A DNA stretch of 64,000 nt, from positions 6,746,001 to 6,810,000 of the forward strand of contig NZ_CP034449.1 in NCBI RefSeq assembly GCF_003952425.1, read 5' to 3'. A program made the translations under genes and the position numbers. This document shows, piece after piece, positions 17,110 through 47,544 of the stretch. How positions within the stretch are numbered: position 1 is the stretch's first letter; the number at the start of each line of letters is the position of its first letter. A model generated the notes under the pieces. It saw only the letters and a program-made list of their open reading frames with translations, made no database searches and was not told where the DNA came from. The DNA is from Mesorhizobium sp. M2A.F.Ca.ET.046.03.2.1 (lineage in GTDB: Bacteria; Pseudomonadota; Alphaproteobacteria; Rhizobiales; Rhizobiaceae).

Positions 17110-17436
17110 ATGACCGAGCGCGCCGCTATCCTGGCCGAACTCGCATCGATCGCCGCCGCGGTCGAGCGGCTCGCCGGACTGCTCACTGTGGAAGAGCCGT
17201 CGCCGGACCCGCCTATCGGCCATGCTGACGATGGTGGTCGTGTGGAACCGCCTCGCAAGTTTGACGGGCATGACATGGTGACGCCGCACATCGCCCAGCT
17301 GCGCACCGGTATTCCGCAGAACACGATCCGCAAGTGGTGTCAGGCTGAGGGCATCGGTGAGAAGCGTGGCGCCGGCTGGGTCGTCTCCATGCAGGAACTG
17401 CACACCCGGGTTCATCGCCGACGCAAAGCCGCCTAA
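17110..17436 (+). CDS. Putative DNA-binding protein with C-terminal helix-turn-helix
   Basis: A 108-residue protein with an acidic helical N-terminus (LAELASIAAAVERLAGLL), a disordered middle, and a C-terminal segment MVTPHIAQLRTGIPQNTIRK followed by WCQAEGIGEKRGAGWVVSMQ. The latter reads as a MerR/excisionase-like helix-turn-helix with wing. It is followed immediately by four TCACGTT repeats that it may bind. Start chosen at the ATG giving MTERAAILAEL. The regulatory role is inference. Confidence 0.6.
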   Translation: MTERAAILAELASIAAAVERLAGLLTVEEPSPDPPIGHADDGGRVEPPRKFDGHDMVTPHIAQLRTGIPQNTIRKWCQAEGIGEKRGAGWVVSMQELHTRVHRRRKAA

Positions 17437-17442
17437 GCGCGC

Positions 17443-17516
17443 TGTCACGTTTTTCTTGCGCCTATCACGTTCTGTCACGTTTTTCGGTGCCGGCCCCTAT
17501 AGGCCTATCACGTTTT
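17443..17516. repeat. Four TCACGTT direct repeats
   Basis: TGTCACGTTTTT (17443-17454), TATCACGTT (17463-17471), TGTCACGTTTTT (17473-17484) and TATCACGTTTT (17506-17516) lie between a putative DNA-binding gene and the next rightward gene. A regulatory array or binding cluster is likely. Confidence 0.65.
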
Positions 17517-17553
17517 CGACCGCACCTTCGGACCATCAAAACGAGGTGCAGGC

Positions 17554-32991: not shown

Positions 32992-34011
32992 CTACCTCGA
33001 CGCGCCATGCGCGGCCAGCATGCGGCGCGCGCTTTCCTCGTCGGTGATGAGCACGGTCGGCGCGACCAGGTTCATGGCACCGAGCAGCGCCTCGGTCTTC
33101 TCTTCGCCGCCGGAGGTCAGGATTCGGATCGGAGCCTTGCGCAGCCGATCGACATCCACCGACATCACATGGCTGTTGACGGGATGGTCGACCAGGTCGC
33201 CCTTGCGGTCGTAGAAATGGAACAGAAGGTCGCCGACGGCGCCACGCGCAAGCAGGGCCTCCCGGTCCGCTTCCTTGAGAAAGCCGCCGCGCGAGAAGGT
33301 GGTGGCCGACGCGATGCCGCCGACGCTGAGCAGCACAGCATCGAGCGCATCGGCCATCTCGAAGATTTCCTGCAGGCCGCAGCGCTCGACCAGCGCGATC
33401 TTGGTCTCGACGCTGTCGACGACGGCCGGCGTCGGCATCAAATAGCCGTCGCCCTGAAAAATCTGCGCGAAGCGCCAGGCGAACTCGGCCGGGTTGACCC
33501 GGCGCGCGACGCCGACGCCGCCGAGCAGCGAGATCACGCTGAAGTCGGTCAGCGACTTGGCGCTGATGAAAGGCAAGGTGTGGAACAGCGTCACGCCCCA
33601 GCCGACGCCGACCCGCATGCCGGATTTCATGGCGTCGGACAGGAACATGCCGGTCTTGGCGGCGATCGCCGGGATCGGATCGGCGTTGGGGTCGGAGAGC
33701 GGCGCCACCAGCGCCTGCCGCAGGCCGAAGGTCTTTTCCAGCGCGCGCTCCAGGCGCACGATTTCCAGAAGCTCGCTCTCGATGGTGATCTTGACCTCGT
33801 TGCGCGCCCTCGCTTCCGCCAGCATGCGCACGATGGTGACCCGGCCGACGCCGAGCACGTCGGCGATCTCGTTCTGTGTCATCTGCTCGACGAAATACAT
33901 CCAGGCGGCGCGGATCCTGAGCCGGTCGGTCCGGTTTTCATTGACGACCTGGTCGGCCGCCTCCGCTGTCGCCTTGCCGTTTTCAGCTTCGCCCTGCCGT
34001 CGCCTGCCCAA
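32992..34011 (-). CDS. SorC/DeoR-type sugar-binding transcriptional regulator
   Basis: A 339-residue regulator. The helix-turn-helix is at about residues 33-65 (AWMYFVEQMTQNEIADVLGV, GRVTIVRMLAEARARNEV) and the rest is the SorC C-terminal phosphosugar-binding domain (SGMRVGVGWGVTLFHTL, ISLLGGVGVA, LLSVGGI). Members bind a phosphorylated sugar and release DNA. It sits beside the PTS genes and is the natural regulator of that operon. A shared GAACATnTG motif upstream of three nearby units is its candidate operator. Confidence 0.9.
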   Translation of the reverse strand: MGRRRQGEAENGKATAEAADQVVNENRTDRLRIRAAWMYFVEQMTQNEIADVLGVGRVTIVRMLAEARARNEVKITIESELLEIVRLERALEKTFGLRQALVAPLSDPNADPIPAIAAKTGMFLSDAMKSGMRVGVGWGVTLFHTLPFISAKSLTDFSVISLLGGVGVARRVNPAEFAWRFAQIFQGDGYLMPTPAVVDSVETKIALVERCGLQEIFEMADALDAVLLSVGGIASATTFSRGGFLKEADREALLARGAVGDLLFHFYDRKGDLVDHPVNSHVMSVDVDRLRKAPIRILTSGGEEKTEALLGAMNLVAPTVLITDEESARRMLAAHGASR

Positions 34012-34153
34012 GGTCCCCTCCGCGATGCCGTCGCCGATTCTGCGTACTGGTTAAATATCGTCTATTGATCTACCAATCGACACGAACAATCTAGAGAGGG
34101 GCGACTGGCGCCCCCGAGCCGTTGGCGACTTCAGCATTTCGAGGCAATTGGCG

Positions 34154-34924
34154 ATGCTGCGACAAATCTCCGAGGACGTCCGCGCCAACCTGAAGGACCG
34201 GCTTCGGGAACTGCGCGACGCCATTCGCCAGAGCCGGCACGACAGCGCCGGCGAGACGTCTCATGATATAGTCGGGAATTTGCCTCCCTTTCCGGGCCGC
34301 AGCCTGCTCGGCCACGCCGCGAGCGCTGTCGACGACGCGCTGACGATCGCCGAATCCTTCGTTCCCCATTCCCGGCCGCTCAAGGTCGACGGAACGACCG
34401 TGAAAAGCCTGCGCTCCTATTTCCCGGACGGCGATGAAGACCGGCAGATCGGCGGCGAACGTCAATTCAGGCGCGACATGTATTATCTGACCCGCGCGGT
34501 TCTGGCCGGTCACGGCGTCGACAATCCCCGCGTACACGAGGCGAGTTTTTCCGCCGTGCACGCCGCGATGCGCAAGCGCCATGCCGATCTTCTGGCTGGA
34601 GCGACGGCGGATGCGGTCTCCACCGACCAGGTCGCTGCGGCCTGCGCGGCTCTGCTGGTCGAATGCCTCAACCACCGTCCGGTTCAGCCTGGCGAGGCGG
34701 CCACGGCCGACCGGTCGCTCGACATAAGATGTCTGGCGCCTGTCGTGCTTGCCTGCGGACTGGCGACCAAGGCGGACGGCTGCACGCCGGAGCCCGACAT
34801 TCTCGAGATCGCGGTGCTGGCGGCCGAAGTGCGGGAGGATCGCATCCGGCAGGCTTGCGCTCAGGCCAATGCCGTCCAGGAACTGACACCGGTTCTCGCC
34901 ACTCTGCTCGCGCATCTGACGTAA
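34154..34924 (+). CDS. Hypothetical protein in the polyol PTS cluster
   Basis: A 256-residue mostly helical protein (MLRQISEDVRANLKDRLREL onward), convergent with the HPr-EI gene and divergent from the regulator. It contains GERQFRRDMYYLTRAVLAGH and a final LTPVLATLLAHLT. The ATG at 34154 is preferred to TTG at 34148. No family recognised. Its G/C-rich third positions match its neighbours, so it is a resident gene. Confidence 0.6.
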   Translation: MLRQISEDVRANLKDRLRELRDAIRQSRHDSAGETSHDIVGNLPPFPGRSLLGHAASAVDDALTIAESFVPHSRPLKVDGTTVKSLRSYFPDGDEDRQIGGERQFRRDMYYLTRAVLAGHGVDNPRVHEASFSAVHAAMRKRHADLLAGATADAVSTDQVAAACAALLVECLNHRPVQPGEAATADRSLDIRCLAPVVLACGLATKADGCTPEPDILEIAVLAAEVREDRIRQACAQANAVQELTPVLATLLAHLT

Positions 34925-34941
34925 CCGCCGCGAGGAATCCG

Positions 34942-36927
34942 CTATCTTTCGGGCGCCATCGCCGCGATGGTCTTCTTGGCGCGCTGGATCGAGGCCGGGC
35001 TCATGCTGAGCTCGGTCAGGCCCATCCCGATGAAGGCCGGGATCAGGTCCGGACGGCCGGCGGCCTCGCCGCACATGCCCACCATGATGCCGGCGGCGAC
35101 ACCCGCCTTGGCCGTCAGCTCGATCGCCGACATCACCGCCGGATTGGTGACGTCGTTAAGCTTGGCGACCGTCGGGTTGAGGCGGTCGGCGGCCATGATG
35201 TACTGGGTGAGGTCGTTGGTGCCGATCGAGAAGAACGCCACTTCCTTCGCCAGCGCCGACGCGATCAGCACGGCGGCTGGCGTCTCGATCATCACGCCGA
35301 GGTCGAAGCTTGCATGCGGCACGCCTTCGGCCTTCAACTCGGTCGCGCATTCATCGACCAGCGCGCGGGTCCGCGTCACCTCGGCGATTTCCGAGACCAT
35401 CGGCAGCATCACCTTGATGTTGCCGTGAACCGCGGCCCTGAGCAGTGCCCGCAACTGCCTCTTGAAGATGTCGGGACGATCCAGGCACATGCGGATGCCG
35501 CGCCAGCCGAGGAAGGGGTTCTCCTCGTCGGGGAATTCGATGCCGGCGATCGGCTTGTCGCCGCCGATGTCGAGCGTGCGTACGATGACCGAATGCGGCG
35601 CGAACGCCCTGGCCAGCGCGCTGTAGGTCTCGGCCTGCATGTCTTCCGAAGGCAGGTGCATGTGGCGCATGAAGAGCAGCTCGGTGCGGAACAGGCCGAC
35701 GCCCATGGCGCCGGCTTCCTGCGCCGCCTCGATCTCTTCCAGCGAGCCGATATTGGCCGCGACCTCGATCACCGTGCCATCCGCGCGGGTCGGCGTCACG
35801 CTCTTGAACACTTTCAGCCCGGCGCGCTCCTGCGCCGCGGCTTCAACGCGCTTGTTGAAATCGGAGCGCGTCGCCCCATCCGGATCGACGATGACATGCC
35901 CGGCATTGCCGTCGATGGCGACCTCCTTGGCCGCACGCAACTCGTTGATCTTGTCTCCCAGACCCAGCACGGCCGGAACGCCGTGCGAGCGGGCGATGAT
36001 GGCGATGTGCGAGGTGGCGCCGCCATGGCCGCAGACCACGCCGCCGATGCGCTTCAGCGGCGCGCGCGCCAGATCCCAGGCACCGATGTCGTCGGCAATC
36101 AGGATCGCGCCTTGAGGGATGGTCTCCAGGCTGACCTCGTCCTGGCCGAGCAGCACCAGGCAGATCTGCCCGCCGACGGCATGGACGTCGTCGGCCCGGG
36201 CATTGAGATAATGGTCGTCGACCGCGCTGAAATCGGCGGCGATGGTGGCCGCGGCCGCGATGACCGCGGAGACCGCATCGTCACCGCCCTTGATCAGTCT
36301 TTCGACCTCGCCGGTCAGGCTGTCGTCGGCGGCGATGTCGCGCAAAGCCGCGACGATGCCGCGGTCGCCGGCGGCGAGATTGTTCTCGGCAAGCGTGCGG
36401 TCCATGCGCGCCTGGACGCTGGCGACGGCGCCGCGGAAGCGCTCCAGCTCGCTTTCGATCTCGCCGGCCTGCAGGTGCCTGCCCGGCCCCTCGATCTCCG
36501 GCGGGAAATGGGCGAAGGCCGGCCCGATCGCCACGCCCTCACTGGCGGCTACGCCCTGCAGTTTCGGCGTTCCATCCGCCGACGCTGCAGCCGGTGCTAC
36601 GGGCTCCGACGCAGGTGCGACGGCTGCGGTTTCAGAGCCGCCCTCACCCGCTTCGCTCTCGTCGTCGAGACCGGCGCGCGGATTCTCCAGATAGCCGATC
36701 AGCGCCTCGATCGCCTCGATGGCGTCGGCGCCGTTGGCGCGCACGGTGACTTCCTGGTTTTCCTTGACCGCCAGCAGCATCAGCTTGACCGAGCTCTTGG
36801 CGCTGACCGCCTTGCCGTCCTTGATCAGCTCGACATCGGATTCAAAACCCTTGGCGAGTTTTACGAACCGCGTGGCGGGACGGGCGTGCAAACCTTCGTG
36901 CACTCTGACGATGGTCGAGCGTTCCAT
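34942..36927 (-). CDS. HPr-enzyme I fusion of the PTS
   Basis: A 661-residue phosphotransferase. An HPr domain (residues 1-88) carries the phospho-His14 in HEGLHARPATRF and the regulatory-serine region VSAKSSVKLM. An Ala/Pro/Glu linker leads to enzyme I (from about 122), with phospho-His307 in CGHGGATSHIAI, the PEP-binding RTELLFMRHMH and GWRGIRMCLDRP regions, and Cys in MVGMCGEAAGRP. It takes phosphate from PEP and passes it through its own HPr domain to the adjacent IIA. It is the last gene of a five-gene leftward operon. Confidence 0.95.
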   Translation of the reverse strand: MERSTIVRVHEGLHARPATRFVKLAKGFESDVELIKDGKAVSAKSSVKLMLLAVKENQEVTVRANGADAIEAIEALIGYLENPRAGLDDESEAGEGGSETAAVAPASEPVAPAAASADGTPKLQGVAASEGVAIGPAFAHFPPEIEGPGRHLQAGEIESELERFRGAVASVQARMDRTLAENNLAAGDRGIVAALRDIAADDSLTGEVERLIKGGDDAVSAVIAAAATIAADFSAVDDHYLNARADDVHAVGGQICLVLLGQDEVSLETIPQGAILIADDIGAWDLARAPLKRIGGVVCGHGGATSHIAIIARSHGVPAVLGLGDKINELRAAKEVAIDGNAGHVIVDPDGATRSDFNKRVEAAAQERAGLKVFKSVTPTRADGTVIEVAANIGSLEEIEAAQEAGAMGVGLFRTELLFMRHMHLPSEDMQAETYSALARAFAPHSVIVRTLDIGGDKPIAGIEFPDEENPFLGWRGIRMCLDRPDIFKRQLRALLRAAVHGNIKVMLPMVSEIAEVTRTRALVDECATELKAEGVPHASFDLGVMIETPAAVLIASALAKEVAFFSIGTNDLTQYIMAADRLNPTVAKLNDVTNPAVMSAIELTAKAGVAAGIMVGMCGEAAGRPDLIPAFIGMGLTELSMSPASIQRAKKTIAAMAPER

Positions 36928-36975
36928 GGCAATTCTCTAGGTTTGGGCGCTTATCGACAGACAGCGCGGATATTA

Positions 36976-37356
36976 TCAGGCGGCGATGGTGATGACAGCG
37001 CCCGGTGTAAGGGCGGCCACGAGCGCTCCGGTATCGACCTCGGACGCGCAAACCTCACCCGGCCTTTCGGCCTCGGATGCTCCGTTGAAAGAGATCACGA
37101 CATGACCCATCTCGCGGACCTTGCTCCAGGCCGTGGAGCCGACCGCCGTTATCGTCGCCGAGACCGGCCCGAGCGTGATGGAGGCGCCTGTTGCCGGCGC
37201 ATCGTCGCTCGGGCCTTCTTCCGTCTTGTGCAGCACGGAGACCTCGGCCAGTTCGGGAGGCGAGCCATCCGCGAACAGGATGAGCACGCCGCCTTCGGCG
37301 AGGTCCGCCACTTCGGGTCCAATTGCCGTGACCCGTGTCTTGAGAAGAACCGACAT
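36976..37356 (-). CDS. srlB: PTS glucitol/sorbitol-family IIA component
   Basis: A 126-residue soluble phosphocarrier. ILFADGSPPELAEVSVLHKT contains the likely phospho-histidine, and MGHVVISFNGA is typical of the GutA/SrlB family. It passes phosphate from HPr to the IIB cysteine. It has 30 bases of spacing from the IIB gene. Confidence 0.88.
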   Translation of the reverse strand: MSVLLKTRVTAIGPEVADLAEGGVLILFADGSPPELAEVSVLHKTEEGPSDDAPATGASITLGPVSATITAVGSTAWSKVREMGHVVISFNGASEAERPGEVCASEVDTGALVAALTPGAVITIAA

Positions 37357-37385
37357 TTGGCGAACCTCGTTTTATTACTGCTATT

Positions 37386-38390
37386 TTAGAACACGATCAG
37401 GGACACGACCCATGCGATCAGCACGGAGACCGGGCCCATGATCTGGCGGCTGATGAGCACCGCCGGCACGCCGATTTCGATCGTCTTCGGCTTGGCCTCA
37501 CCGAGCGCCAGACCGACAGGAACGAAGTCGCAGCCCACCTGGGTGTTGTAGGCAAACAGCGCCGGCAGCGCCATTGCGGGCGAGATGGTGCCGTTGGCGA
37601 TCTGCGGGCCGATGATGGCGACGCCGATGACCTGGGCGATGACCGCGCCCGGTCCCAGGATGGGCGACAGGAACGGCAGGCCGCAGATGGCCGAGATGAC
37701 CAGCAGGCCGACGATGTTGTTGGCCAGCGGACCCATCGGCTGCGCCAGCACATCGCCGATGCCGGTATAGAGGATCAGGCCGATCAGCATGGTCACGAAA
37801 GCCATGAAGGGCAGCACGTTGCGGACGACCTGATCGATGGTGCGGCGGCCGGAGTTGAAGAAGATGCCGACCACGCGGCCCATGACGCGGCCGATCGAGC
37901 TGATCAGGCCGATAAGCCCGCCTTCGCTCGGCAGCGGCTCGGCCGCCCTGGCTGTGGTGTTGTTGCTTGAACTCATCGATGCTGCTCCCCCCGCAGTGGT
38001 GACCGCTTCGGATCCGTCCGCCATTGCGACATTGGCCGGCTTCACGCCCGAAACGTAGATGTCTTCCGTGATGAACTGGGCGAGCGGACCCGCCTGGCCG
38101 ACCGGCGTCAGATTGACGGTCGGGATACGCTTGCGCGGGTAGACGCCGCAGCGCGCGGTGCCGCCGCAGTCGACGACGACGACCGCCATCTCGCTTTCGA
38201 TCGGCGGCGACTTGAAGCCGTCGACAGCCTGGGCGCCGGTCATGTCGGCAATGAGCTGCGCCACCGGATGGATGCCGCCACCGGTTACCGACACGACCTT
38301 GTTGCGCTGCTCGGTCGGCTCGATGACCAGGGGGCCGCCCCAACCGGTCGACCCCTTCGATATCTTTACTGCCTTGTATGTCTTGGCCAT
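37386..38390 (-). CDS. srlE: PTS glucitol/sorbitol-family IIB(C) component
   Basis: A 334-residue protein. The N-terminal IIB domain has the phospho-cysteine region VVVDCGGTARCGVYPRKRIP (Cys75 and Cys81), and the C-terminal half is a membrane domain with about four helices ending LISRQIMGPVSVLIAWVV. This is the SrlE layout. The family transports and phosphorylates hexitols or related polyols; the substrate cannot be read from sequence. Confidence 0.92.
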   Translation of the reverse strand: MAKTYKAVKISKGSTGWGGPLVIEPTEQRNKVVSVTGGGIHPVAQLIADMTGAQAVDGFKSPPIESEMAVVVVDCGGTARCGVYPRKRIPTVNLTPVGQAGPLAQFITEDIYVSGVKPANVAMADGSEAVTTAGGAASMSSSNNTTARAAEPLPSEGGLIGLISSIGRVMGRVVGIFFNSGRRTIDQVVRNVLPFMAFVTMLIGLILYTGIGDVLAQPMGPLANNIVGLLVISAICGLPFLSPILGPGAVIAQVIGVAIIGPQIANGTISPAMALPALFAYNTQVGCDFVPVGLALGEAKPKTIEIGVPAVLISRQIMGPVSVLIAWVVSLIVF

Positions 38391-38405
38391 GGTGTCCTCC
38401 CGCCC

Positions 38406-39173
38406 TTAGAGCTCGACGCCCTGGCGGCGTGCCATGATGGCCGTGATGCGCTCGGTCAGGATGCCCTTCAGCAGGATGACGACGAGGCCGACGATGGCGT
38501 ACCAGATGGCTACCTTGACGTGATAACCATTGGCGATGACGCCCCGCTTCTCGAGGTCGAGCAGCGCGACCAGCATGCCGCCCCAGACGAAATATTCACC
38601 GGGGTTGATGTGCGGGAAGAGGCCGAGCGGGGGATGCACATAGGACACTGCCGCGTCGTAGAAGGCAGGCTTGTGCTTTTCTTCCAGGAAGGAACCGAAG
38701 GTGTAGGCCATCGGGTTGGTGAGGAAGAACACCGAGAGCACCGGCAGCACCGTATAGCGGGTCAGCGCGATGCGGCCGGCGCCACGCGCCAGACCGTGGA
38801 CGCGCTCCTCGCCGACCAGCTCGGTGACGGCGTAGAAGGCCGTCATAAGCACGACCAGGGTCGGGATGATGCCGGTGACGAAGCCGGCGAACACTTCGCC
38901 GCCCTTCTGGAAGATGCCGATGAAGTACTTGCCGATGGCGGTGAGCCAGCCGAGCTGCTCTTCCTGCTGCACGTTCTTCAGCTGTTCCTTGAGCTGATCG
39001 GCGGTGACCGGCGCGTTGTCGGTCGTCGCCTGCGCCAGGACCACGAGATGATCGGTGGCATGCTCGACGCCGAGCTTGCCGTGCCAGGCAGCATCCGAAA
39101 CCATGGTGCCTGCGACATGCAGGTTGTGCACCGCGAGGTCCGCATGCTGCGCCAATAGTGTAATTACAGACAT
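38406..39173 (-). CDS. srlA: PTS glucitol/sorbitol-family IIC component
   Basis: A 255-residue membrane permease. The family core runs from about residue 75 (GWLTAIGKYFIGIFQKGGEV), with FLTNPMAYTFGSFLEEKHKP and LFPHINPGEYFVWGGMLVAL. It has an N-terminal extension of roughly 70 residues compared with E. coli SrlA, which may reflect a different substrate or regulation. It forms the transport channel with the IIB(C) protein. Confidence 0.92.
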   Translation of the reverse strand: MSVITLLAQHADLAVHNLHVAGTMVSDAAWHGKLGVEHATDHLVVLAQATTDNAPVTADQLKEQLKNVQQEEQLGWLTAIGKYFIGIFQKGGEVFAGFVTGIIPTLVVLMTAFYAVTELVGEERVHGLARGAGRIALTRYTVLPVLSVFFLTNPMAYTFGSFLEEKHKPAFYDAAVSYVHPPLGLFPHINPGEYFVWGGMLVALLDLEKRGVIANGYHVKVAIWYAIVGLVVILLKGILTERITAIMARRQGVEL

Positions 39174-39225
39174 TTCTCCTCCTTATGACCCCTGCCGGTC
39201 ATTCCCAGCCGGCTGCCGGCGTCGT

Positions 39226-39663
39226 TTAAGCCCTTGCTATGTTCAAGCCGGCCAGGCCCGGCTTCTTCCCCGGCTCCGACCGTGCGCGGTCGATCTGCTC
39301 GATCGCCCGTTTCACGGCCTCGGCCACACCGGGTTCCCCCTCCCCCATGATCGCAGGGTTGGACCGGAGTCGATCGAGGGGGATACCCTCGAATTCTTCA
39401 TGTCGCTTGAACTTGGTCAGCACCGAACGGCCGCTCATGACCATCATGCGGCGCACGATGAGATCCGGCGTCACGACGATGAGCGCGATGGTGCCCTTGG
39501 CCAGGCGTCCGCGGAAATTGCCCGCGCCGACGAAACCGTCCTTGTACTGGCTGGTGACGCCTTTGAAGACATCCGAATAATGCCGCATCTGCAGCCAGAC
39601 GCCCAACGATTGCAGCGCCCAGACAACAAACAGCAGAAGCAGTGCCCACTGCCAGATTGCCAT
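39226..39663 (-). CDS. gutM: GutM-family protein
   Basis: A 145-residue protein with an N-terminal transmembrane helix (AIWQWALLLLFVVWALQSLG) and the GutM domain (HYSDVFKGVTSQYKDGFVGA, GTIALIVVTPDLIV). In E. coli GutM is a transcriptional activator of the glucitol operon. The membrane anchor suggests it senses PTS activity. ATG 39663 follows GGGAGGAG. It is the first gene of the leftward PTS operon. Confidence 0.88.
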   Translation of the reverse strand: MAIWQWALLLLFVVWALQSLGVWLQMRHYSDVFKGVTSQYKDGFVGAGNFRGRLAKGTIALIVVTPDLIVRRMMVMSGRSVLTKFKRHEEFEGIPLDRLRSNPAIMGEGEPGVAEAVKRAIEQIDRARSEPGKKPGLAGLNIARA

Positions 39664-39729
39664 TTCGGTCTCCTCCCGAGTCTCTTCCTCCGGCACATAT
39701 TGAACGGAGGCGAGACGACCCGAAAGTGA

Positions 39730-39738
39730 GAACATTTG
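39730..39738. promoter_or_regulatory. Candidate SorC-type operator A
   Basis: GAACATTTG lies 67 bp before gutM in the region divergent to the gene at 39852, with a related TCAACATGTA at 39751-39760. It shares the GAACATnTG core with 40518-40530 and 47347-47359. Confidence 0.45.
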
Positions 39739-39851
39739 TTTCCTCGAATGTCAACATGTATTATATTAGCAGCCATAACGCTCCACAGCCGACCGGCCGA
39801 TTTCGGCATCGGCGGCGCTGTGGTAGCCTGTCGTCAAACGGGATGTGAGAC

Positions 39852-40493
39852 ATGGACCTGCCCTTCAGGCACGAACTGGCGCTTATGCCGGACCTTCGCC
39901 ACAGGCTGCGGCAGCTGCGCTGGTTCCGCGCCACCTTCCGCAGCAGCGCGAGGGTGGTGTCGGAAACGTTCGGCGTGCGCTTCGAGATCGACGAGGCCAA
40001 GCTGACGCGCGCCTTCCTCGACTGGATCGAAGTCATGGAAGCGCAGAAGCGATTTGCGGCGGTCGACCGCGCGGACTTCATCGTCTTCGCCGCCGGGCTG
40101 GTGCTGCGTGAGCTGATCCGGCAGGCGCCGGCGCGGGAGGCCTCAGGTCTGAAGGAAATGGTCGAGACCGAGGCAAATGCCGGCACGGCGGAAATCGTGC
40201 GCTTCTGGCCGGAAGGTTTCCTTTATACCAACTACTGCGTGTCGGCGATCCTGGCCGTGCACGAGCAGGAATTCGGCAACGCGCCCAGCATCGATAAATG
40301 CGCCGACGATCTGCGCACCTGGTGGTCCTACCGCGAGAACGCATCGGAAATGCCCGCTTATGCCGTGGCCTTCCTCGATCGGTTCCTCGGCGCCGAGCCC
40401 AACTGGATCACACCCGACCGCGCCCAGTCGCGCCAGGCCATGCAGCGCGCGCTCGGATCCTCGCCGGTCAGCGAGGCGTTGCGCCAGCTTTGA
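39852..40493 (+). CDS. Hypothetical protein in the polyol cluster
   Basis: A 213-residue soluble, helical protein (MDLPFRHELALMPDLRHRLR onward) with a Trp/Tyr-rich middle (FWPEGFLYTNYCVSAILAVH, DDLRTWWSYRENASEMPAYA). It is divergent from gutM and upstream of the HAD gene. No family recognised. Shared control with the PTS operon is likely because the two share an intergenic region. Confidence 0.65.
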   Translation: MDLPFRHELALMPDLRHRLRQLRWFRATFRSSARVVSETFGVRFEIDEAKLTRAFLDWIEVMEAQKRFAAVDRADFIVFAAGLVLRELIRQAPAREASGLKEMVETEANAGTAEIVRFWPEGFLYTNYCVSAILAVHEQEFGNAPSIDKCADDLRTWWSYRENASEMPAYAVAFLDRFLGAEPNWITPDRAQSRQAMQRALGSSPVSEALRQL

Positions 40494-40517
40494 GCCGCTG
40501 GAGACGTAATCACCCGC

Positions 40518-40530
40518 TATTGAACATCTG
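40518..40530. promoter_or_regulatory. Candidate SorC-type operator B
   Basis: TATTGAACATCTG lies about 52 bp before the HAD gene. It differs by one base from TATTGAACATATG at 47347-47359. Confidence 0.5.
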
Positions 40531-40581
40531 ACTTTTTATCGATAGCGATGTGCGCATTGGCACAGAGGCCGGGAGAAGCGC

Positions 40582-41256
40582 GTGGCGCAAACCAGACTTA
40601 TGATTTTCGACTGCGACGGCGTTCTCGTCGACAGCGAGCCGCTCGCCGCCAAGGCTTACGAGCGCGTCTACGAGAAGCACGGCATGCCGGGCGTGCATGG
40701 CGGCATCATCGCGCAATGCATCGGCATGAAGCAGGCCGACATCATCGTGAAGATCAAGGAACTGACCGGCCACCAGTTCCCCCCGGCGGCCGATGGCGAC
40801 ATCTGGGCCGAGACCAAGCTGCTCTTCTCCGAGGAGTTGAAGCCGACGCCGGGGATCGCGCCATTCCTCAGCGCGCTTGCCGGAAACCGTTGCGTCGCCT
40901 CGTCGTCCTCGGTCGAGCGTATCAACCACAGCCTGTCGGTCACGGGATTGTCGCGCTTCTTCGGCGAGGCGATCTTTTCCTCCTCGATGGTGAAGAACGG
41001 TAAGCCGGCGCCGGACATCTTCCTCTACGCCGCCGAGAAGATGGGTGCGAAGCCGACCGACTGTATCGTGGTAGAGGATTCGCCCTTCGGCGTTCAGGGC
41101 GCGGTGGCTGCCGGCATGATCGCGATCGGCTATACCGGCGGCGGTCACACCTATCCCGAGCACGGCGCGCGGCTGAAAGCCGCCGGCGCCGATTTTGTCT
41201 GCGCCGACTGGCACGAGGTTGCCCGGCAATTGGCGGAGCTTGGTGTCCCGGCCTAA
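40582..41256 (+). CDS. HAD-superfamily sugar phosphatase/phosphomutase
   Basis: A 224-residue HAD hydrolase of the beta-phosphoglucomutase/sugar-phosphatase type. Motif I is FDCDGVLVDSEPLA, motif II ASSSSVER, motif III KNGKPAPDIFLYAA and motif IV VVEDSPFGVQGA. All catalytic residues are present. Within this cluster it probably removes phosphate from a dead-end or overflow sugar phosphate. The exact substrate is unknown. Confidence 0.88.
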   Translation: MAQTRLMIFDCDGVLVDSEPLAAKAYERVYEKHGMPGVHGGIIAQCIGMKQADIIVKIKELTGHQFPPAADGDIWAETKLLFSEELKPTPGIAPFLSALAGNRCVASSSSVERINHSLSVTGLSRFFGEAIFSSSMVKNGKPAPDIFLYAAEKMGAKPTDCIVVEDSPFGVQGAVAAGMIAIGYTGGGHTYPEHGARLKAAGADFVCADWHEVARQLAELGVPA

Positions 41257-41257
41257 T

Positions 41258-42427
41258 CTAGCGGAGACTGGGGAAGCGACGCCGGGTCCAGTCCCCCGGC
41301 GGGACCAATCCCCCTACACGGAAGTTGAAGGATAGGACCCTCGTCGCATCGGCGTCGACCTCGCAGCGGAAGCTCAGATCGTACCATTGGGTTGTCGTGC
41401 TGAAGGCGGCCTGCGGAGGGTTGAGAACATTGCCCTGCTTCAGGGGGATGGTCGGCAGCCATTTCGGCGCGTAGTCGGCACTTTGCAGTTCCTGGTTCAG
41501 GACGTTGGCGCAAAGATTGGCTATGCGCTGATCGCGCGGCACGTTCTCCATCGAGCTCGTAGCCTGCATATTGCCGGTCGCACCCGGCGAGTAAAGTTTC
41601 CTGACGCCCGGCAGGCCGGAATAGATCGGCGCTCCCGCAGCCGCGCTGTCGGCGGAGTTCGACCTTGCCGGGTTCCCGCTTGGCGCTCTCAAGGCTCTTG
41701 CGGATTTGAACTTCATCGCCTTGGAAGGTTTTGCCTTTTCGGCCATGGATGGAGGCGCGGGCTTGTCGCCTGACTCGGCCGTCAATGGCTTTAACGGCAC
41801 GGCCGCAGGCTTTTCGGCGGTTTCCGGAGCTGTTTCCTGCTTGTCCTGCTGCTGTTTGTCAGCATCCTCCGTCGCCTGCTTCTCCTCGCTTTGAGCGGGT
41901 TTTTCCTCCGTCGCGGCGGTTGCCGGTTTCTCTTGAGGCTTATTGGCGTCAGCCTGCTGCTCGGGCGTTGCAGGCGAAGCGGGCTGGCCGGGCGCGGGCT
42001 TCGGCGCGACCGGCGGCTTCGCGGGCTCATTCTGGGTCGGCGATGGCGCATTGGCCGGAGCGCTGCCCCCGTTCAGAGATTTCTCCGGGCCGGTATCCTT
42101 CTCGCCGTACTGGAAAACGCGCTTCAGAACCGGGATGTCCTGCGGCTTCGGCGGCTGCGGAGCCGGTGGCTTCGGAGCCGGCTGCTCAGGCGGCTTTTCG
42201 ACCTTCTGTTCAGGTTTCGGCTCCGGCGGCTTCGGAGCAGGCTTCGGCTTTGGCTGTTCCGGCGGCGGCACGATCGCGACGTTGACCGGCTGTTCCTGCT
42301 GGTCCGGCTGTTGCTCGGGCCTCGGCAGGCCAAAGAACAGGAACGCTGCAATCAGGACATGCAGGAACAGCGATGCGGCCAAGGCCCATCGCCAATTCCG
42401 AAACCATTCCCGCATCTTGCCGTTCAT
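41258..42427 (-). CDS. DUF930 protein with long Pro/Lys/Glu-rich linker
   Basis: A 389-residue protein with an N-terminal membrane anchor (WRWALAASLFLHVLIAAFLF), a low-complexity Pro/Lys/Glu/Ala-rich segment (about residues 40-250, TonB-like) and a C-terminal DUF930 domain (RIANLCANVLNQELQSADYA, WYDLSFRCEVDADATRVLSF). Such proteins are confined to rhizobia and relatives and probably reach across the periplasm. The start at 42427 (MNGKMREW) is the best of several. Not obviously part of the polyol pathway. Confidence 0.8.
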   Translation of the reverse strand: MNGKMREWFRNWRWALAASLFLHVLIAAFLFFGLPRPEQQPDQQEQPVNVAIVPPPEQPKPKPAPKPPEPKPEQKVEKPPEQPAPKPPAPQPPKPQDIPVLKRVFQYGEKDTGPEKSLNGGSAPANAPSPTQNEPAKPPVAPKPAPGQPASPATPEQQADANKPQEKPATAATEEKPAQSEEKQATEDADKQQQDKQETAPETAEKPAAVPLKPLTAESGDKPAPPSMAEKAKPSKAMKFKSARALRAPSGNPARSNSADSAAAGAPIYSGLPGVRKLYSPGATGNMQATSSMENVPRDQRIANLCANVLNQELQSADYAPKWLPTIPLKQGNVLNPPQAAFSTTTQWYDLSFRCEVDADATRVLSFNFRVGGLVPPGDWTRRRFPSLR

Positions 42428-42565
42428 TGCGCCCGATGTGGAACGAAATGGCGGCGGCTTCAAGCACCGGGCCGGGATTTGCGCGAGCTGCCGGCCTGGC
42501 AAGTCGGTGATCGGAGGGCCCCGTAGCGTAAGATCAAGCCGGATCAAAGGCCTGCAGGAATTGGC

Positions 42566-43939
42566 TTACACCAGCATGCCCATCGGGTTTTCGATCATGC
42601 GCTTGAAGGCGCCGAGCAGTTCGGCGCCGAGCGCGCCGTCGACCGCGCGGTGGTCGGTCGAAAGCGTCACTGACATCACCGTGGCAATCTTGATCTCACC
42701 CTTCTTCACCACCGCACGCTCCTCGCCCGCGCCGACCGCCAGGATCGTCGCATGCGGCGGGTTGATGACGGCGGCAAAGTCCTTGATGCCGAACATGCCG
42801 AGATTGGACACCGCCGTCGTGCCGCCCTGATACTCTTCCGGCTTCAGCTTGCGGCTCCTGGCACGGCTGGCCAAATCCTTCATCTCGTTGGAGATCACCG
42901 ACAGCGTCTTTTCATCGGCATGCCGGATGATCGGCGTGATCAGGCCGCCGGGGATCGACACGGCGACGCCGACATCGGCGTGCTTGTGCTTGACCATGGC
43001 GTTCTCGGTCCAGGAGGCGTTCGCATCCGGCACCGCCATCAGCGCCATCGCCATCGCCTTGATCACCATGTCATTGACCGAGAGCTTGTAGGCCGGAACC
43101 TCGCCCTTGTCGGTCTCCCTCATGGGTGCTGAGGCATTCAACTGCGTGCGCAACGCCAGAAGCGCGTCGAGCTCGCAGTCCAGCGTCAGATAGAAATGCG
43201 GGATGGTGGACTTCGCCTCGACCAGGCGGCGCGCGATGGTCTTGCGCATGTTGTCATGCGGAACGAGCTCGTAGGAGCCTTCGGCGAACAGCTTCAGCAC
43301 CTGGTCGTCCGACATCGGCTTGGGCGCGGGCGCCGGGGCGAACGGGACTTCGGCCGGAATCTCGGCGGCCGGCTTAGCGAGGGTGGCCGTGCCTTTCGCT
43401 GCGACCGCGGCCTCGACGTCGGCGCGCACGACACGGCCGCGCGGGCCGCTGCCTGCCATGGCCGAGAGGTCCAGATTTGCCTCACGGGCCAAGCGTCGAG
43501 CCAAAGGCGTGGCTCGGGCGGGCCCCTGCGATTGGCTGATCTCCCCCCTTGTGGGGGAGACGGCCGGCAGGTCTGAGGGGGGCCGGACGGAATGAGAGGT
43601 TGGCGGGACAACGCCCGCACCTGTCGGCTGCGCCGACATCTCGCCCACGAGGGGGGAGATTGGCGCCTTGTTCTGCGGCGTCTCAGCCGAATACACTTCA
43701 TCGTCGGCATAGATCCAGGCGACGGGCTCACCGACGGGAATGTCGACGCGCTCCTTGCCAGTGACGTTGCGAAGCGTGCCGCTGGCCGGCGCGTCGATCT
43801 CCATCGCCGCCTTGTCGGTCTCGATCTCGAAGAGCACGTCACCCTTCTTGACGCGAGCGCCCTCCTCGGCGAACCAGCGCGAGATCTGGCCGGTCGCCAT
43901 GTCCATGTCGACCTTGGGAAGAATGACTTCTGTCGGCAT
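42566..43939 (-). CDS. Dihydrolipoamide acyltransferase (E2) of an acetoin-dehydrogenase-like complex
   Basis: A 457-residue E2. It has a lipoyl domain (lipoyl Lys43 in EIETDKAAMEID), a linker, an E1/E3-binding domain (ATPLARRLAREANLDLSAMA, then GPRGRVVRADVEA) and a catalytic domain with STDHRAVDGALGAELL. Residues 94-134 of the linker are encoded by a palindromic repeat element (see 43538-43660). It transfers the acyl group from E1 to CoA. No E3 gene is nearby, so a shared dihydrolipoamide dehydrogenase must be used. Confidence 0.92.
   Translation of the reverse strand: MPTEVILPKVDMDMATGQISRWFAEEGARVKKGDVLFEIETDKAAMEIDAPASGTLRNVTGKERVDIPVGEPVAWIYADDEVYSAETPQNKAPISPLVGEMSAQPTGAGVVPPTSHSVRPPSDLPAVSPTRGEISQSQGPARATPLARRLAREANLDLSAMAGSGPRGRVVRADVEAAVAAKGTATLAKPAAEIPAEVPFAPAPAPKPMSDDQVLKLFAEGSYELVPHDNMRKTIARRLVEAKSTIPHFYLTLDCELDALLALRTQLNASAPMRETDKGEVPAYKLSVNDMVIKAMAMALMAVPDANASWTENAMVKHKHADVGVAVSIPGGLITPIIRHADEKTLSVISNEMKDLASRARSRKLKPEEYQGGTTAVSNLGMFGIKDFAAVINPPHATILAVGAGEERAVVKKGEIKIATVMSVTLSTDHRAVDGALGAELLGAFKRMIENPMGMLV
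43538..43660. repeat. Rhizobial palindromic repeat inserted in the E2 gene
   Basis: The ends are near-identical inverted copies (ATCTCCCCCCTTGTGGG at the left; the reverse complement of the right end is ATCTCCCCCCTCGTGGG). The 123-bp length keeps the reading frame and adds about 41 residues of Pro/Ser/Gly-rich linker (PLVGEM and SPTRGEI flank it). Confidence 0.75.
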
Positions 43940-43942
43940 CGC

Positions 43943-44944
43943 TCAGCGGACCCCTTTCACGAGGTCGCGCGCTGCGGCGATGATGTCGGGAACCTGCGGC
44001 ACGGTGGCCTTTTCCAGGTCCGGATTGTAAGGGATCGGCGTCTCGGCGCCGCCCAGGCGCACGATCGGCGCATCGAGATAATCGAAGGCCTCGCTTTCGG
44101 CGACTAGCGCGCTTACTTCCGCGCCGATGCCGAGCGTCTTCACCGCTTCGTAGACGCAAAGCAGGCGCGAGGTTTTCTTCACGCTGTCGATGATGGTCTG
44201 CCTGTCGATCGGGCGGATGGTGCGCAAGTCGACCACCTCGATGTCGATGCCTTCGCCTTCCAGCGCGGCAGCAGCGTCAAGCGCCTTCTGCACCATGATC
44301 GACGTGGCGACGATGGTGAGGTCGCGACCTTCGCGGCGGATCTCGGCCTTGCCGATCGGAACGGTATAGTGGCCTTCCGGCACATGGCCCTTCATCTTGT
44401 AGAGCAGCTTGTGCTCGAAGATCATCACCGGATCCGGATCGGCAACGGCGGCCAGCAGCATGCCCTTGGCATCGTGCGGCGTCGCCGGCTGGATCACCTT
44501 CAGGCCAGGCACATGGCCGAGCCAGGCTTCCAGGCTCTGGCTGTGTTGGGCGGCTGCACCCGTGCCGGAGCCGGCAGGGAAACGCATCACAACCGGCACC
44601 GAGACCTCGCCGCCCAGCATGAAGCGCATCTTGGCCGCCTGGTTGACGATCTGCTCCATGCCGAGCGTGGCGAAATCCGAGAACTGGAATTCGAAGATCG
44701 GCCGCATGCCGGTGACGGCCGCGCCAACCGCGACGCCTGCACCGCCCAGTTCGGAAATCGGCGTGTCGATCACCCGGTCGGTGCCGTACCGTTCGACGAG
44801 GTCGCCGGTCACCTGGAAGGCGCCGCCATAAACGCCGATATCCTCGCCCATCAGGAAGACGCGCTCGTCCATGTCCATGGCGATCGCCATGGCTTCCTGG
44901 ATCGCCTGGGCGTAGCTCAGTTCACGCACCGCGGCGTCCATCAC
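43943..44944 (-). CDS. TPP-dependent dehydrogenase E1 beta (AcoB-like)
   Basis: A 333-residue E1 beta subunit. The transketolase pyrimidine-binding part shows [18 protein letters not shown] and [35 protein letters not shown] and the C-terminal [16 protein letters not shown] domain resemble acetoin dehydrogenase AcoB more than classical pyruvate dehydrogenase beta. It forms an alpha2-beta2 enzyme with the upstream gene, which it overlaps by ATGA. Confidence 0.9.
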
Positions 44945-45969
44945 GCTTGCTCCGTGTAAACATAGTTTTCGAGGGTGGCGATCTCGGGCGCCGGGCTCGC
45001 CTTGGCGAACTCGATGCCGTCGGCGATCTCCTTGGCGACCGCGTCGCGGATCGCCTCAATGCCCTGGTCGTCGATGAAACCGAAATCGCGCAGCTCCGTC
45101 TCGAACAGCGTGATCGGATCGCGGTTCGCCATCCAGTCCTCGATCTCTTCCTTCGTGCGATAGCGGTTGCGATCGCTCTTGGAATGGCCGCGATGACGGT
45201 AGGTCTTGGACTCGATCAGCGTCGGCCCCTCGCCGGCGCGCGCCCGCTCGACCGCGTTGAAGGACGCCTCGGCCACCTCGGAGAAGATGTTGCCGTTGAC
45301 GATGACGCCCGGCATCGAATAGGCGGCCGCTCGTTCGGCGATGTTCTTCACCGCGGTCGAGCGCGCCGTCGAGGTCGACATGCCGTAGCCATTGTTCTCG
45401 CACACGAAGATCACCGGCAGCTTCCAGATCGCCGCCATGTTCAAGGCCTCGTGGAAGGCGCCCTCATTGTTGGCGCCGTCGCCGAAGAAGGAGACGACCA
45501 CCTTGCCGGTCTTCATCCTCTTGGATGAAAGCGCTGCGCCCACGGCAATCGGAATGCCGCCGGCAACGATCCCATTGGCGCCGAGATTGCCCTTGGCGAC
45601 ATCGGCGATGTGCATGGAGCCGCCCCTGCCCTTGCAATAGCCGGTGGTCTTGCCGAAGAACTCGGCGAACATGCGGCTGACCTCCGCGCCCTTGGCGATG
45701 CAATGGCCGTGGCCGCGATGCGTCGAGGTGATCTGGTCATCCTCGGCGAGCGGCATGCAGATGCCCATGGCGCTCGCTTCCTGCCCGATCGACAGGTGCA
45801 TGGTGCCGTGGATGAGGCCGCGCATGTAGCACTCTTCCGCGCCCTCTTCGAAGCGGCGGATGAGGTACATCTTGTGAAGCACCTGTCTCAGTTGCTCTGG
45901 ACGGTACTGGCGATAGACGAAAGGCAGGTTGGCCCGGCTATCCACGACGGCTTTGCTGGCTCCGGCCAT
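44941..45969 (-). CDS. TPP-dependent dehydrogenase E1 alpha (AcoA-like)
   Basis: A 342-residue E1 alpha subunit. The thiamine-diphosphate motif is [20 protein letters not shown], with [33 protein letters not shown] and [10 protein letters not shown], closely following the AcoA pattern of acetoin:DCPIP oxidoreductases. The enzyme class cleaves acyloins (CH3-CO-CHOH-R) to an acyl group on lipoate plus an aldehyde. It starts two bases after the COG4091 gene, so the three enzymes form one operon. Confidence 0.9.
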
Positions 45970-45971
45970 GA

Positions 45972-47300
45972 TCACGCCTCCACGGTTCCGTAGACGAGCT
46001 TGTCCTGGCGGGCGCGCAGATCGGCGATCTTCGAGCCCGGCGCGGGCGCGGCATTGGCATAGGTGATGAGCTCGCCCTTCTTGATGGGCGCCGTCACGGA
46101 GCCGCCCTGCAGCAGGCCGCAGGGGATCGCGCGCGCCGCATGGGCTTCCGGCGCCGTCATGATCCAGGCGCGGTAGCAATATTCGCCGATGGCATCGAGC
46201 TTGTCGCCGGGCTTCAGGTCCTTCTTGGCGACCGCGCAGACCTCGGCCACGGGCTTTGCCAGCGGCACCATGTCGGCCTTGCCGTAGAGCACGACGCGGG
46301 CGCAGGTCAGCGGCACTTCCAGCGAGGTCAGGTGATAGGGGCGATGGAAGGTGAAATACGGGCCCTTGCCCATCTTCAGGTCTTCCATGCGCTCCGAGAT
46401 GCGCGGATGCGACATGTCGGCCACGACGAAGACGCCCGGCGCGACGCCCTTGCCGATCGAATAGTCGACGACGCCGACCTTCGACAGCACGCCGCCGTCC
46501 TTCTCAGGCACCAGCACCTTCGACAATTCGCCGAGCGTGGCCGCCGGGCCGTGCATCCCGGGCTTGTCGGGAACCAGCCCAGTCGCGTTGGCGATCGCCG
46601 CCATCTCGACCATTGTCTTCGAACCATCGACGAATTCGACCAGCATGCGCACATTCATGTGCCGGCGCTTCGCCTCCTCCTCATAGTCCGGAGGCGTGGC
46701 GTCGATGTTGAGCGGGTTGTTCTTGCCCTTGCCCGCGGCAACGATCGGGTGGCCCATAGCGGAGACGAACTCGATCAGCTCCATGCAGGAAGACGGCTCG
46801 TCGCCGGCGCCCAGGGAATAGGTGACGCCAAGCCGGTCGGCCTCGGCCTTGAGATAGGCGCCGATGGTGACGTCCGCCTCGACATTCATCATCACCAGGT
46901 GCTTGCCATGCTCCATGGCGCGCAGGCCGATCTCGGCGCCGACGGCCGGAACGCCGGTCGCGTCGATCACGACGTCGATGAGGTCATTGCCGATGACAAG
47001 GCTGGAATCGTTGGTGACGGCGATCTTGCCCGCTTCCATGGCAGCGGTCATGGCCGACGCGTTCGACACTTCCCGCGCATGGCCGGTTTCCTGGAAGGCG
47101 ATATCGACGGCCTTGCTGGCCGCCGGCAGGTTGAGTTCGGAAATGGCGCCGATCTCGATGCCGGACATATGGGCGACGCGGGTAACGATGTCGGTTCCCA
47201 TTTCGCCTGAGCCGATTAGGCCGATGCGGATGGGCTTGCCGGACTTGCCGCGTTCCTCGAGATCCCGGGCAAGGCCCGTCAACGAAATATTGGAAGCCAT
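45972..47300 (-). CDS. COG4091 NAD(P)-dependent oxidoreductase with SAF domain (DXR-like/DRL family)
   Basis: A 442-residue protein. The Rossmann domain begins IRIGLIGSGEMGTDIVTRVA (GxGxMG at residues 30-35), followed by a homoserine-dehydrogenase-like catalytic region (EADVTIGAYLKAEADRLGVT, YSLGAGDEPSSCMELIEFVS) and a C-terminal SAF domain (GELITYANAAPAPGS). This is the COG4091 architecture of DRL from Brucella, which converts DXP to MEP. Paralogues with other roles exist. It is first in an operon with AcoA/AcoB/E2-like genes. ATG 47300 follows GGAGGA. Confidence 0.82.
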   Translation of the reverse strand: MASNISLTGLARDLEERGKSGKPIRIGLIGSGEMGTDIVTRVAHMSGIEIGAISELNLPAASKAVDIAFQETGHAREVSNASAMTAAMEAGKIAVTNDSSLVIGNDLIDVVIDATGVPAVGAEIGLRAMEHGKHLVMMNVEADVTIGAYLKAEADRLGVTYSLGAGDEPSSCMELIEFVSAMGHPIVAAGKGKNNPLNIDATPPDYEEEAKRRHMNVRMLVEFVDGSKTMVEMAAIANATGLVPDKPGMHGPAATLGELSKVLVPEKDGGVLSKVGVVDYSIGKGVAPGVFVVADMSHPRISERMEDLKMGKGPYFTFHRPYHLTSLEVPLTCARVVLYGKADMVPLAKPVAEVCAVAKKDLKPGDKLDAIGEYCYRAWIMTAPEAHAARAIPCGLLQGGSVTAPIKKGELITYANAAPAPGSKIADLRARQDKLVYGTVEA

Positions 47301-47346
47301 GCCGCTTATTCCTCCCATATCGCATGCTGTCTGATTGCTTGACGGG

Positions 47347-47359
47347 TATTGAACATATG
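47347..47359. promoter_or_regulatory. Candidate SorC-type operator C
   Basis: TATTGAACATATG lies 47 bp upstream of the COG4091 start, within an AT-rich stretch (47341-47400) that is the likely promoter. It matches operator B in 12 of 13 positions. Confidence 0.5.
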
Positions 47360-47544
47360 TATTTCTGTCAAGACTAATGTCCAAATCTTTGGCCGTTAGT
47401 CGACGCTTTTCGGATTGGTCGAGGCGCGGCCGCGAAAGGCATGGACCATGAGCGCCGCCATCAACCCAATGCGAGCGTGCGCCTGTGGCCGAATGCCGGC
47501 GAAGGCGCTCGACGGACCGCAAGGAGATATCTAGGCGGTAATTG

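Follow-up and report, generated by a model that had tools for sequence, protein, structure and literature searches.

A candidate inducible regulon for the breakdown of a methyl-branched tetritol in Mesorhizobium, joining a glucitol-type phosphotransferase system, a DXR-II enzyme and an E1/E2 complex

Genes and enzymes of the locus

We analysed a gene cluster of Mesorhizobium sp. M2A.F.Ca.ET.046.03.2.1 in which a glucitol-type phosphotransferase system (PTS) lies beside an oxidoreductase of the DXR-like (DRL) family and the E1alpha, E1beta and E2 subunits of a dehydrogenase complex. The cluster is part of a 64,000-nucleotide stretch of contig NZ_CP034449.1, here called the window; the host genome is a single contig of 7.37 Mb. 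An initial annotation had claimed genes for the PTS, a SorC regulator, the DRL and E1alpha/E1beta/E2, and had read them as a possible catabolic system for 2-C-methylerythritol. All of these genes were present. They form two operons on the minus strand, gutM-IIC-IIB-IIA-(HPr-EI) and DRL-E1alpha-E1beta-E2, and between the operons lie a gene for a 213-aa orphan protein and a HAD gene, both on the plus strand, and a DUF930/TonB-like gene. The SorC gene is located past another orphan gene from the end of the PTS operon. The initial annotation had mentioned neither the orphan genes nor the HAD and DUF930/TonB-like genes.

The PTS operon runs on the minus strand from gutM (39226..39663; PF06923, 72.6 bits) through the genes for EIIC (SrlA, 38406..39173, with about 75 extra N-terminal residues; NF049923, 183.7 bits, cut-off 150), EIIB (SrlE, 37386..38390; NF049924, 450 bits, cut-off 400) and EIIA (36976..37356; PF03829, 95 bits) to a fused HPr-Enzyme I (34942..36927; PF00381, PF05524, PF00391 and PF02896), the predicted general PTS phosphoryl donor of the cluster. 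EIIA, EIIB, EIIC and GutM reached their Pfam cut-offs; on the NCBIfam glucitol models EIIB and EIIC passed, and EIIA and GutM scored below the cut-offs. The listed open reading frame (ORF) of gutM extends further upstream, to an ATG at 39735. Since this ATG falls inside an operator-like site described below, translation more likely starts at the ATG at 39663. The putative owner of this operator, a SorC/DeoR-type sugar-binding transcriptional regulator, is encoded at 32992..34011 (minus strand; PF04198, 174 bits), and a SorC-type gene adjoins the PTS or the DRL in relatives too. A protein-family scan recognised no sorbitol-6-phosphate dehydrogenase among the 14 proteins encoded in 32992-47300, as the initial annotation had said of the cluster; the scan did not extend to the remainder of the genome. 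The cluster has the IIA, IIB, IIC and GutM families in common with the glucitol/sorbitol PTS operon (srlAEB, gutM) but differs from it by a SorC gene, a fused HPr-EI and the lack of a sorbitol-6-phosphate dehydrogenase in the cluster, in whose place we propose the DRL.

The second operon, also on the minus strand, is tightly packed, with a gap of 2 bases between the genes for the DRL (45972..47300; 442 aa; PF21135, 227 bits) and E1alpha (44941..45969), an overlap of 4 bases between E1alpha and E1beta (43943..44944) and 3 bases between E1beta and E2 (42566..43939). A phmmer search of the PDB with the DRL returned 3UPL and 3UPY, the Brucella DXR-II, at E values of about 1e-217 and every other chain at E > 0.01. 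The protein is 73.6% identical to the crystallised enzyme 3UPL over 436 aa and up to 99% identical to Mesorhizobium proteins, and it keeps all ten DXR-II residues examined (K191, K193, T229, R320, G121, H250, V351, E174, F178 and Y322). The first seven of these are tied in the available text of PMC3847144 to activity and to divergence from DLO1 and DLO2, including substrate binding and dimerisation. Membership of the DLO1/DLO2 side families was rejected, the tested residues being those of DXR-II. Judged by its sequence, the COG4091 protein that the initial annotation had assigned to the DRL family is more exactly a DXR-II. It shares its family, active-site residues and expected chemistry with the Brucella enzyme, namely the interconversion of 2-C-methyl-D-erythritol 4-phosphate (MEP) and 1-deoxy-D-xylulose 5-phosphate (DXP). 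The Brucella enzyme is described as biosynthetic, whereas the window DRL stands in an operon with an acyloin-type E1/E2 which, judged by a shared motif, appears co-regulated with a PTS. M. loti is stated to encode an additional functional DXR-II paralog (PMC3847144, available text).

To place the E1/E2 complex we compared its subunits with acetoin-type and pyruvate-type enzymes. E1alpha (PF00676, 292.8 bits) contains an 11-residue motif common to the E1alphas of three acetoin-type (aco) clusters, two of which are flanked by butanediol or acetoin reductase genes. At this position the genome's own pyruvate dehydrogenase (PDH) E1alpha, whose gene adjoins enolase, reads AYRDHGHMLA, and the two E1alphas are only 39% identical. 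In the E1alpha tree 18 cluster sequences grouped together (local support 1.00), and sequences of the PDH and branched-chain (BCKDH) types were separate from the rest (local support 0.90). On the NCBIfam PDH equivalog TIGR03182 the window E1alpha scored 373.4, below the cut-off of 393.85; the E. faecalis aco E1alpha scored 342.7. By alignment and tree, the cluster E1alpha resembles acyloin-type E1s, not pyruvate-type E1s. E1beta has PF02779 and PF02780, and E2 combines a lipoyl domain (PF00364), an E3-binding domain (PF02817) and a 2-oxoacid acyltransferase domain (PF00198). The window E2 is not of the AcoC (alpha/beta hydrolase) type and has PF00198 instead. Its Pfam domains, PF00198 included, recur in the E2s of the three acetoin clusters; the AcoC feature thus fails to define all aco systems, and E2 type alone decides little. 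The acetoin-dehydrogenase E2 model (cut-off 307) was passed by the cluster E2s of Terrarubrum (377.5) and Pseudoroseomonas (362.1), and the Aminobacter cluster E2 has the same domains as these two. An E3 gene is present in the clusters of S. meliloti Rm41 and others.

Conserved linkage, a shared operator and paired DRL copies

We then examined DRL neighbourhoods in relatives, keeping the best 80 of at least 584 loci. E1alpha adjoins the DRL in 68 of these 80 loci. Genes of the srl (glucitol) PTS were found in 27 of the 43 E1alpha loci with full 10-kb flanks, compared with none of the 11 stand-alone DRL loci with full flanks. A survey of 150 genomes of the order, the host's own included, identified a glucitol IIC in eight, all of which have a DRL_cat match. 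The distance between IIC and DRL is at most 10 kb on the same contig in seven of the eight, among them G095, which has a DRL fragment only; in G141 the PTS adjoins E1/E2, with the DRL on a different contig. The glucitol PTS occurs in the DRL-E1 neighbourhood across three alphaproteobacterial orders, and the clusters of Ochrobactrum-type Brucella, Phyllobacterium, Pseudohoeflea, Terrarubrum, Pseudoroseomonas and Paracoccus versutus have their genes in a rearranged order, which argues that the linkage is kept by function rather than inertia. By its own criterion the initial annotation would have been refuted had relatives shown no conserved link between the PTS and the DRL and E1/E2 genes. This link proved to be conserved, rearranged and apparently co-regulated, and so did not refute it. 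A chance neighbourhood was rejected on the strength of this conservation, the co-occurrence of IIC and DRL, and the operator counts given below.

Variants of the transport genes were also identified. Plasmid clusters of five strains (S. meliloti Rm41, A. tumefaciens CFBP7129, R. sophoriradicis, S. americanum and S. chiapasense) carry a carbohydrate ABC transporter and a sugar kinase in place of the PTS, beside a SorC-type gene and DRL-E1alpha-E1beta-E2-E3. The kinase is PfkB by Pfam in S. meliloti Rm41 and A. tumefaciens CFBP7129. The PTS version and the version with ABC transporter and kinase alike would give the DRL a phosphorylated substrate. E1/E2 complexes use lipoate and thiamine diphosphate (ThDP) as cofactors; lipA is also present in two of the five ABC-type clusters, and a thiamine-synthesis operon follows the cluster in a blueberry Rhizobium. 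On a Priestia plasmid the PTS, E1/E2/E3, two SorC-type genes, an MFS transporter, a DRL and an FGGY kinase occur together. At three further loci (L101, L105 and L119) DRL-like genes with 57-59% identity to the window DRL adjoin FGGY-kinase-like and ABC-transporter-like genes. No E1/E2 was found in these stretches, which may represent a third variant of transport and phosphorylation. In Ligilactobacillus salivarius (L085) consecutive genes encode a DRL, a glucitol PTS, a SorC-type regulator, fructose-6-phosphate aldolase and transketolase, for which a different lower pathway would be needed. A Clostridioides difficile plasmid record (L130) groups a SorC-type gene, E1alpha, E1beta, E2, E3 and a PTS, with no DRL annotated in the stretch; a lipoate ligase and ispD-ispF lie a few kb from this group.

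Promoter comparison among relatives, with two loci (L056 and L060) as the starting point, gave a common word, AAAACAAATGTTC, which was then tried on the window; within the window alone, comparing promoters in pairs had yielded no shared words above shuffles. A position weight matrix (PWM) was built from 21 sites, preselected for likeness to this word, at ten loci other than the window, including one from Mesorhizobium (L041). The three best sites in the window, all on the minus strand, were found 44 bp upstream of the DRL (47344..47367, core AATACATATGTTC; score 27.7), upstream of gutM (39723..39746, core AAACAAATGTTC; 27.3) and upstream of the HAD gene (40515..40538; 22.5); fourth place scored 12.6. 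The exact pattern RAWACAWATGTTC has three matches in the 7.37-Mb genome, and its reversed control has none. Two of these matches are the gutM and DRL sites, and the third (C1:5400396), flanked by genes for an IclR-type regulator and a CoA-transferase-like protein, was taken as unrelated. A looser second pattern, allowing at most one mismatch, matched the HAD site, a site before the genome's own galactitol-type (gat) PTS (PWM score 18.3) and C1:797945, again taken as unrelated; its control had one match.

With a call defined as a PWM score of at least 15 within 200 bp upstream, the operator was detected at 66 of the 68 E1alpha-linked DRLs (60 of 62 without the training loci) compared with one of 12 stand-alone DRLs. 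It was also detected at 20 of 21 gutM promoters and in 7 of 400 random 200-bp windows from the same loci, which may themselves contain true sites. The sites are weaker in several ABC-type and distant clusters, and L099 has none scoring 7 or more. These motif data suggest that the PTS operon and the DRL-E1-E2 operon are apparently co-regulated and that the HAD gene probably belongs to the same regulon. SorC may bind the shared motif. At C1:1511156 and L092 of the host genome the galactitol-type PTS with the operator-like site is convergent to the second, operator-free DRL, and the same PTS adjoins the DRL-E1-E2 cluster in Ochrobactrum-type genomes and the blueberry Rhizobium.

We searched for DXR-I with the profile PF08436, which found the enzyme in 9 of 14 control genomes. 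No DXR-I was detected in the host genome, which has two DRLs and a full DXS (804 bits), and so a DRL must make MEP for isoprenoids. We extended the search to the genomes of 20 relatives, chosen by hand rather than at random and of unstated completeness. DXR-I was absent in 18 and present in Pseudohoeflea and Pseudorhodobacter. At least two DXR-II-grade DRLs (score above 212 bits) were found in 16 of the 18 genomes that lack DXR-I; both DXR-I genomes have one, the cluster copy. The single-DRL exceptions among the 18 are G159, with a stand-alone copy (L082), and G165 (Root157), with a cluster copy.

Nine two-copy genomes were compared, most of them chosen for alike scores of both DRL hits. In all nine the E1alpha-linked DRL has the operator (25.7-35.6) and the stand-alone DRL does not (score below 8). 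DNA identity between the cluster ORF and its stand-alone counterpart is 95.3-98.7%, with flanks at 22-35%, in seven of the nine (four Phyllobacterium, two Aminobacter and one Oryzicola), a count which, given how the genomes were chosen, is not a frequency. When ORFs were compared from one of these genomes to another, in part pairing unlike classes, six comparisons yielded 80.6-90.8%. Two further Phyllobacterium genomes also have a near-identical pair, which brings near-identity to 9 of the 12 chosen two-copy genomes without DXR-I that were compared. These alignments are most simply read as the outcome of gene conversion, or of duplications that recurred recently, within lineages; either would mean that both copies are able to do the same reaction, and in these genomes without DXR-I one copy must make MEP. 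Near-identity to the stand-alone copy, together with the absence of DXR-I, indicates that the cluster DRL very probably catalyses the interconversion of MEP and DXP. On one contig of Phyllobacterium endophyticum the promoters of the two copies are exchanged, as if by recombination inside the gene or by mis-assembly, so that the stand-alone DRL (L052) has the catabolic promoter and the E1-linked DRL (L058) the stand-alone promoter. This genome is the source of one operator-less E1alpha-linked DRL and of the sole stand-alone DRL with an operator.

Proposed pathway and its alternatives

We consider it likely that the cluster acts as an inducible regulon by which a methyl-branched tetritol, with 2-C-methyl-D-erythritol as the likeliest candidate, would be catabolised through MEP and DXP to acetyl-CoA and glyceraldehyde 3-phosphate. 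The glucitol-type PTS (HPr-EI, IIA, IIB, IIC and GutM) would import the polyol, which we infer to be 2-C-methyl-D-erythritol, and phosphorylate it to MEP. DXR-II, running oxidatively in the cell, would convert MEP and NADP+ to DXP; DXR is listed as reversible in the available text of PMC13001223. The ThDP-dependent E1 would attack the C2 ketone of DXP, as with acetoin, releasing glyceraldehyde 3-phosphate and leaving hydroxyethyl-ThDP, from which E2, together with an E3 encoded elsewhere, would form acetyl-CoA and NADH. Mutations in E. coli aceE (PDH E1) permit DXP formation (PMC3424233, available text), presumably because hydroxyethyl-ThDP and glyceraldehyde 3-phosphate join in the reverse reaction, which implies that such active sites can hold DXP. 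Through SorC and the shared operator, both operons would be switched together with the distant galactitol-type PTS and probably the HAD gene. The second, operator-free DXR-II would serve isoprenoid biosynthesis, since the genome lacks DXR-I. The plant source of methylerythritol suggested by the initial annotation agrees with the available text of PMC11192765, according to which plants make methylerythritol and its 1- and 4-glucosides. The proposed route resembles the erythritol catabolism of rhizobia and Brucella in the uptake, phosphorylation and oxidation of a tetritol. It differs from erythritol catabolism, which uses an ABC transporter, a kinase and dehydrogenases and is not known to involve a DRL or acyloin cleavage.

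Several observations weigh against this interpretation. The window E2 passes the PDH E2 equivalog TIGR01349 (466.7, cut-off 445) and E1beta likewise passes the subfamily PRK09212, whose name is pyruvate dehydrogenase E1 beta; the E1beta tree, with long branches, gave no clear position and put the genome's own PDH E1beta next to the cluster clade. The window's DRL-E1-E2 operon has no E3 gene. The acetoin-dehydrogenase-like character that the initial annotation gave to E1/E2 holds for E1alpha, and its interpretation as a whole is partly supported: DRL identity, the Aco-like E1alpha, the plant source and conservation speak for it, and the E2 score and the genomes with a cluster DRL alone and no DXR-I complicate it. 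The cluster shares with the acetoin dehydrogenase system (acoABC plus E3) the E1alpha signature, the E1/E2 gene order, an acetoin-type E2 in some clusters and the expected acyl-CoA and aldehyde products; besides its E2 and lack of E3, the window differs in its proposed sugar-phosphate substrate and in having no adjoining 2,3-butanediol or acetoin reductase gene. No srl PTS gene was seen in 41 of the 68 E1alpha loci, 25 with short and 16 with full flanks. In some of the latter (L018, L028 and L029) genes that adjoin the PTS elsewhere appear near the stretch edge, and others have other transport genes nearby. In the Firmicutes Listeria and Ligilactobacillus salivarius the DRL adjoins the same PTS, but the stretches read contain no E1/E2. 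The complex is thus not universal, and either the substrate or later steps differ there. Two E1alpha-linked DRLs (L058 and L083) lack the operator. At least two genomes without DXR-I, G079 among the 150 and G165, have the cluster DRL alone, which would then also serve biosynthesis there, working in both directions, unless the assemblies are incomplete. Lastly, the DRL copies have diverged in two Ochrobactrum-type genomes (71-75% in DNA) and in the host (66% in protein, the ungapped ORF identity of 38% being an artefact of length difference), and in these lineages the evidence for a same reaction rests on family membership.

These observations leave room for other functions. The regulon might serve another branched polyol, such as apiitol or hamamelitol, with the DRL rearranging its phosphate to xylulose 5-phosphate or fructose 6-phosphate, and with E1/E2 making glycolyl-CoA or being replaced by an aldolase and transketolase, as the L. 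salivarius gene row would suggest. Chemical reasoning does not in principle require a methyl group for the rearrangement. We nevertheless hold this to be unlikely, because the alphaproteobacterial DRL stands mostly with an acyloin-type E1/E2 (68 of 80 loci), fitting a 1-deoxy ketose, because near-identity to the stand-alone copy in genomes without DXR-I points to MEP/DXP activity and because the L. salivarius DRL deviates at two of the ten examined residues. An ordinary hexitol PTS beside an auxiliary pyruvate dehydrogenase, with the DRL as a plain polyol-phosphate dehydrogenase, would account for the EIIB and EIIC scores on the glucitol/sorbitol models (not reached by EIIA and GutM) and for the PDH-like scores of E2 and E1beta, and PTS activity produces pyruvate. 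It appears quite improbable, however, given an E1alpha under the PDH cut-off and apart from the genome's own PDH, the acetoin-type E2 of some clusters, and a DRL that keeps all examined DXR-II residues and is near-identical to the stand-alone copy in 9 of 12 genomes; moreover, ABC-type clusters, which make no PTS pyruvate, retain E1/E2.

A role of the cluster in isoprenoid biosynthesis was also considered. E1 would make DXP from pyruvate and glyceraldehyde 3-phosphate and the DRL would make MEP, or the PTS would salvage methylerythritol into the MEP pathway, where PTS-made MEP could feed IspD. The lack of DXR-I in the host, the DXP production that mutant PDH E1 permits in E. coli (PMC3424233, available text) and the few genomes with a cluster DRL alone and no DXR-I fit such a role. 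The presence of a full DXS led us to reject E1/E2 as a biosynthetic DXP synthase. The host also has a second, operator-less DRL, the cluster has a sugar-binding-type regulator and is kept in the DXR-I genomes of Pseudohoeflea and Pseudorhodobacter, and salvage would need neither the DRL nor E2; taken together, these points make a biosynthetic role very improbable.

If the catabolic interpretation is true, the cluster encodes a breakdown route for methylerythritol, a plant compound derived from the MEP isoprenoid pathway and glycosylated, and a sugar phosphate would be the substrate of its acyloin-type dehydrogenase. Plants and rhizobia would then be linked by a carbon flow that can be tested, and the gene set, with two DRLs of which one is apparently inducible, would offer a means to study the direction of DXR-II in living cells. 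No paper on bacterial methylerythritol catabolism by this route was found among the matches listed, a partial coverage of the literature that does not establish its absence from print. DXR-II is treated as biosynthetic in the available text of PMC3847144, with hosts that include some with DXR-I, some mevalonate-only and some with neither (classes B, C and E), and Carretero-Paulet et al. (2013) ask there how DXR-II arose in DXR-I strains, redundancy being disfavoured. We see an even chance that DXR-II is by origin and in most hosts catabolic, acting on branched polyols that enter by a PTS or by an ABC transporter and kinase in Alphaproteobacteria and Firmicutes, and that its isoprenoid role in Mesorhizobium, Phyllobacterium and Brucella relatives is a secondary recruitment that allowed the loss of DXR-I. 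Such an origin would remove the redundancy with DXR-I and, if true, would explain why DXR-II is patchy, often redundant beside DXR-I and found in bacteria that are mevalonate-only or lack isoprenoid genes. Hosts without E1/E2 would then degrade other branched polyols through an aldolase and transketolase.

Other genes of the cluster

The HAD gene (40582..41256, plus strand; PF13419, 89.8 bits) encodes a predicted phosphatase of the 6-phosphogluconate phosphatase/beta-PGM group, which scored 119.4 bits on NF007854, under the cut-off of 211. It is a conserved neighbour in other clusters. The DUF930/TonB-like protein is encoded at 41258..42547 on the minus strand.

The two orphan genes lie on the plus strand. 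The 213-aa protein (39852..40493) is present in both the PTS and ABC cluster variants, at 33-63% identity to its companions in other clusters. Its family has 437 homologs, and an alignment of 43 revealed 31 invariant positions. Among 120 homologs listed none has a precomputed Pfam domain, and one is named DUF1266 domain-containing by UniRef; a fold search gave no PDB match at E <= 0.001. The 258-aa protein (34148..34924) matched no Pfam or NCBIfam family, and its predicted model is poor (mean pLDDT 66.9). Homologs at 35-43% identity were identified in the PTS clusters of Phyllobacterium and Ochrobactrum-type genomes, and clear homologs occur in PTS clusters only. In ABC clusters a gene of similar size adjoins the member of the 213-aa family, with 16-24% identity to the 258-aa protein and no BLAST match. 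Orphan-type genes of L091 lie at 17256-17879 and 1267-1854.

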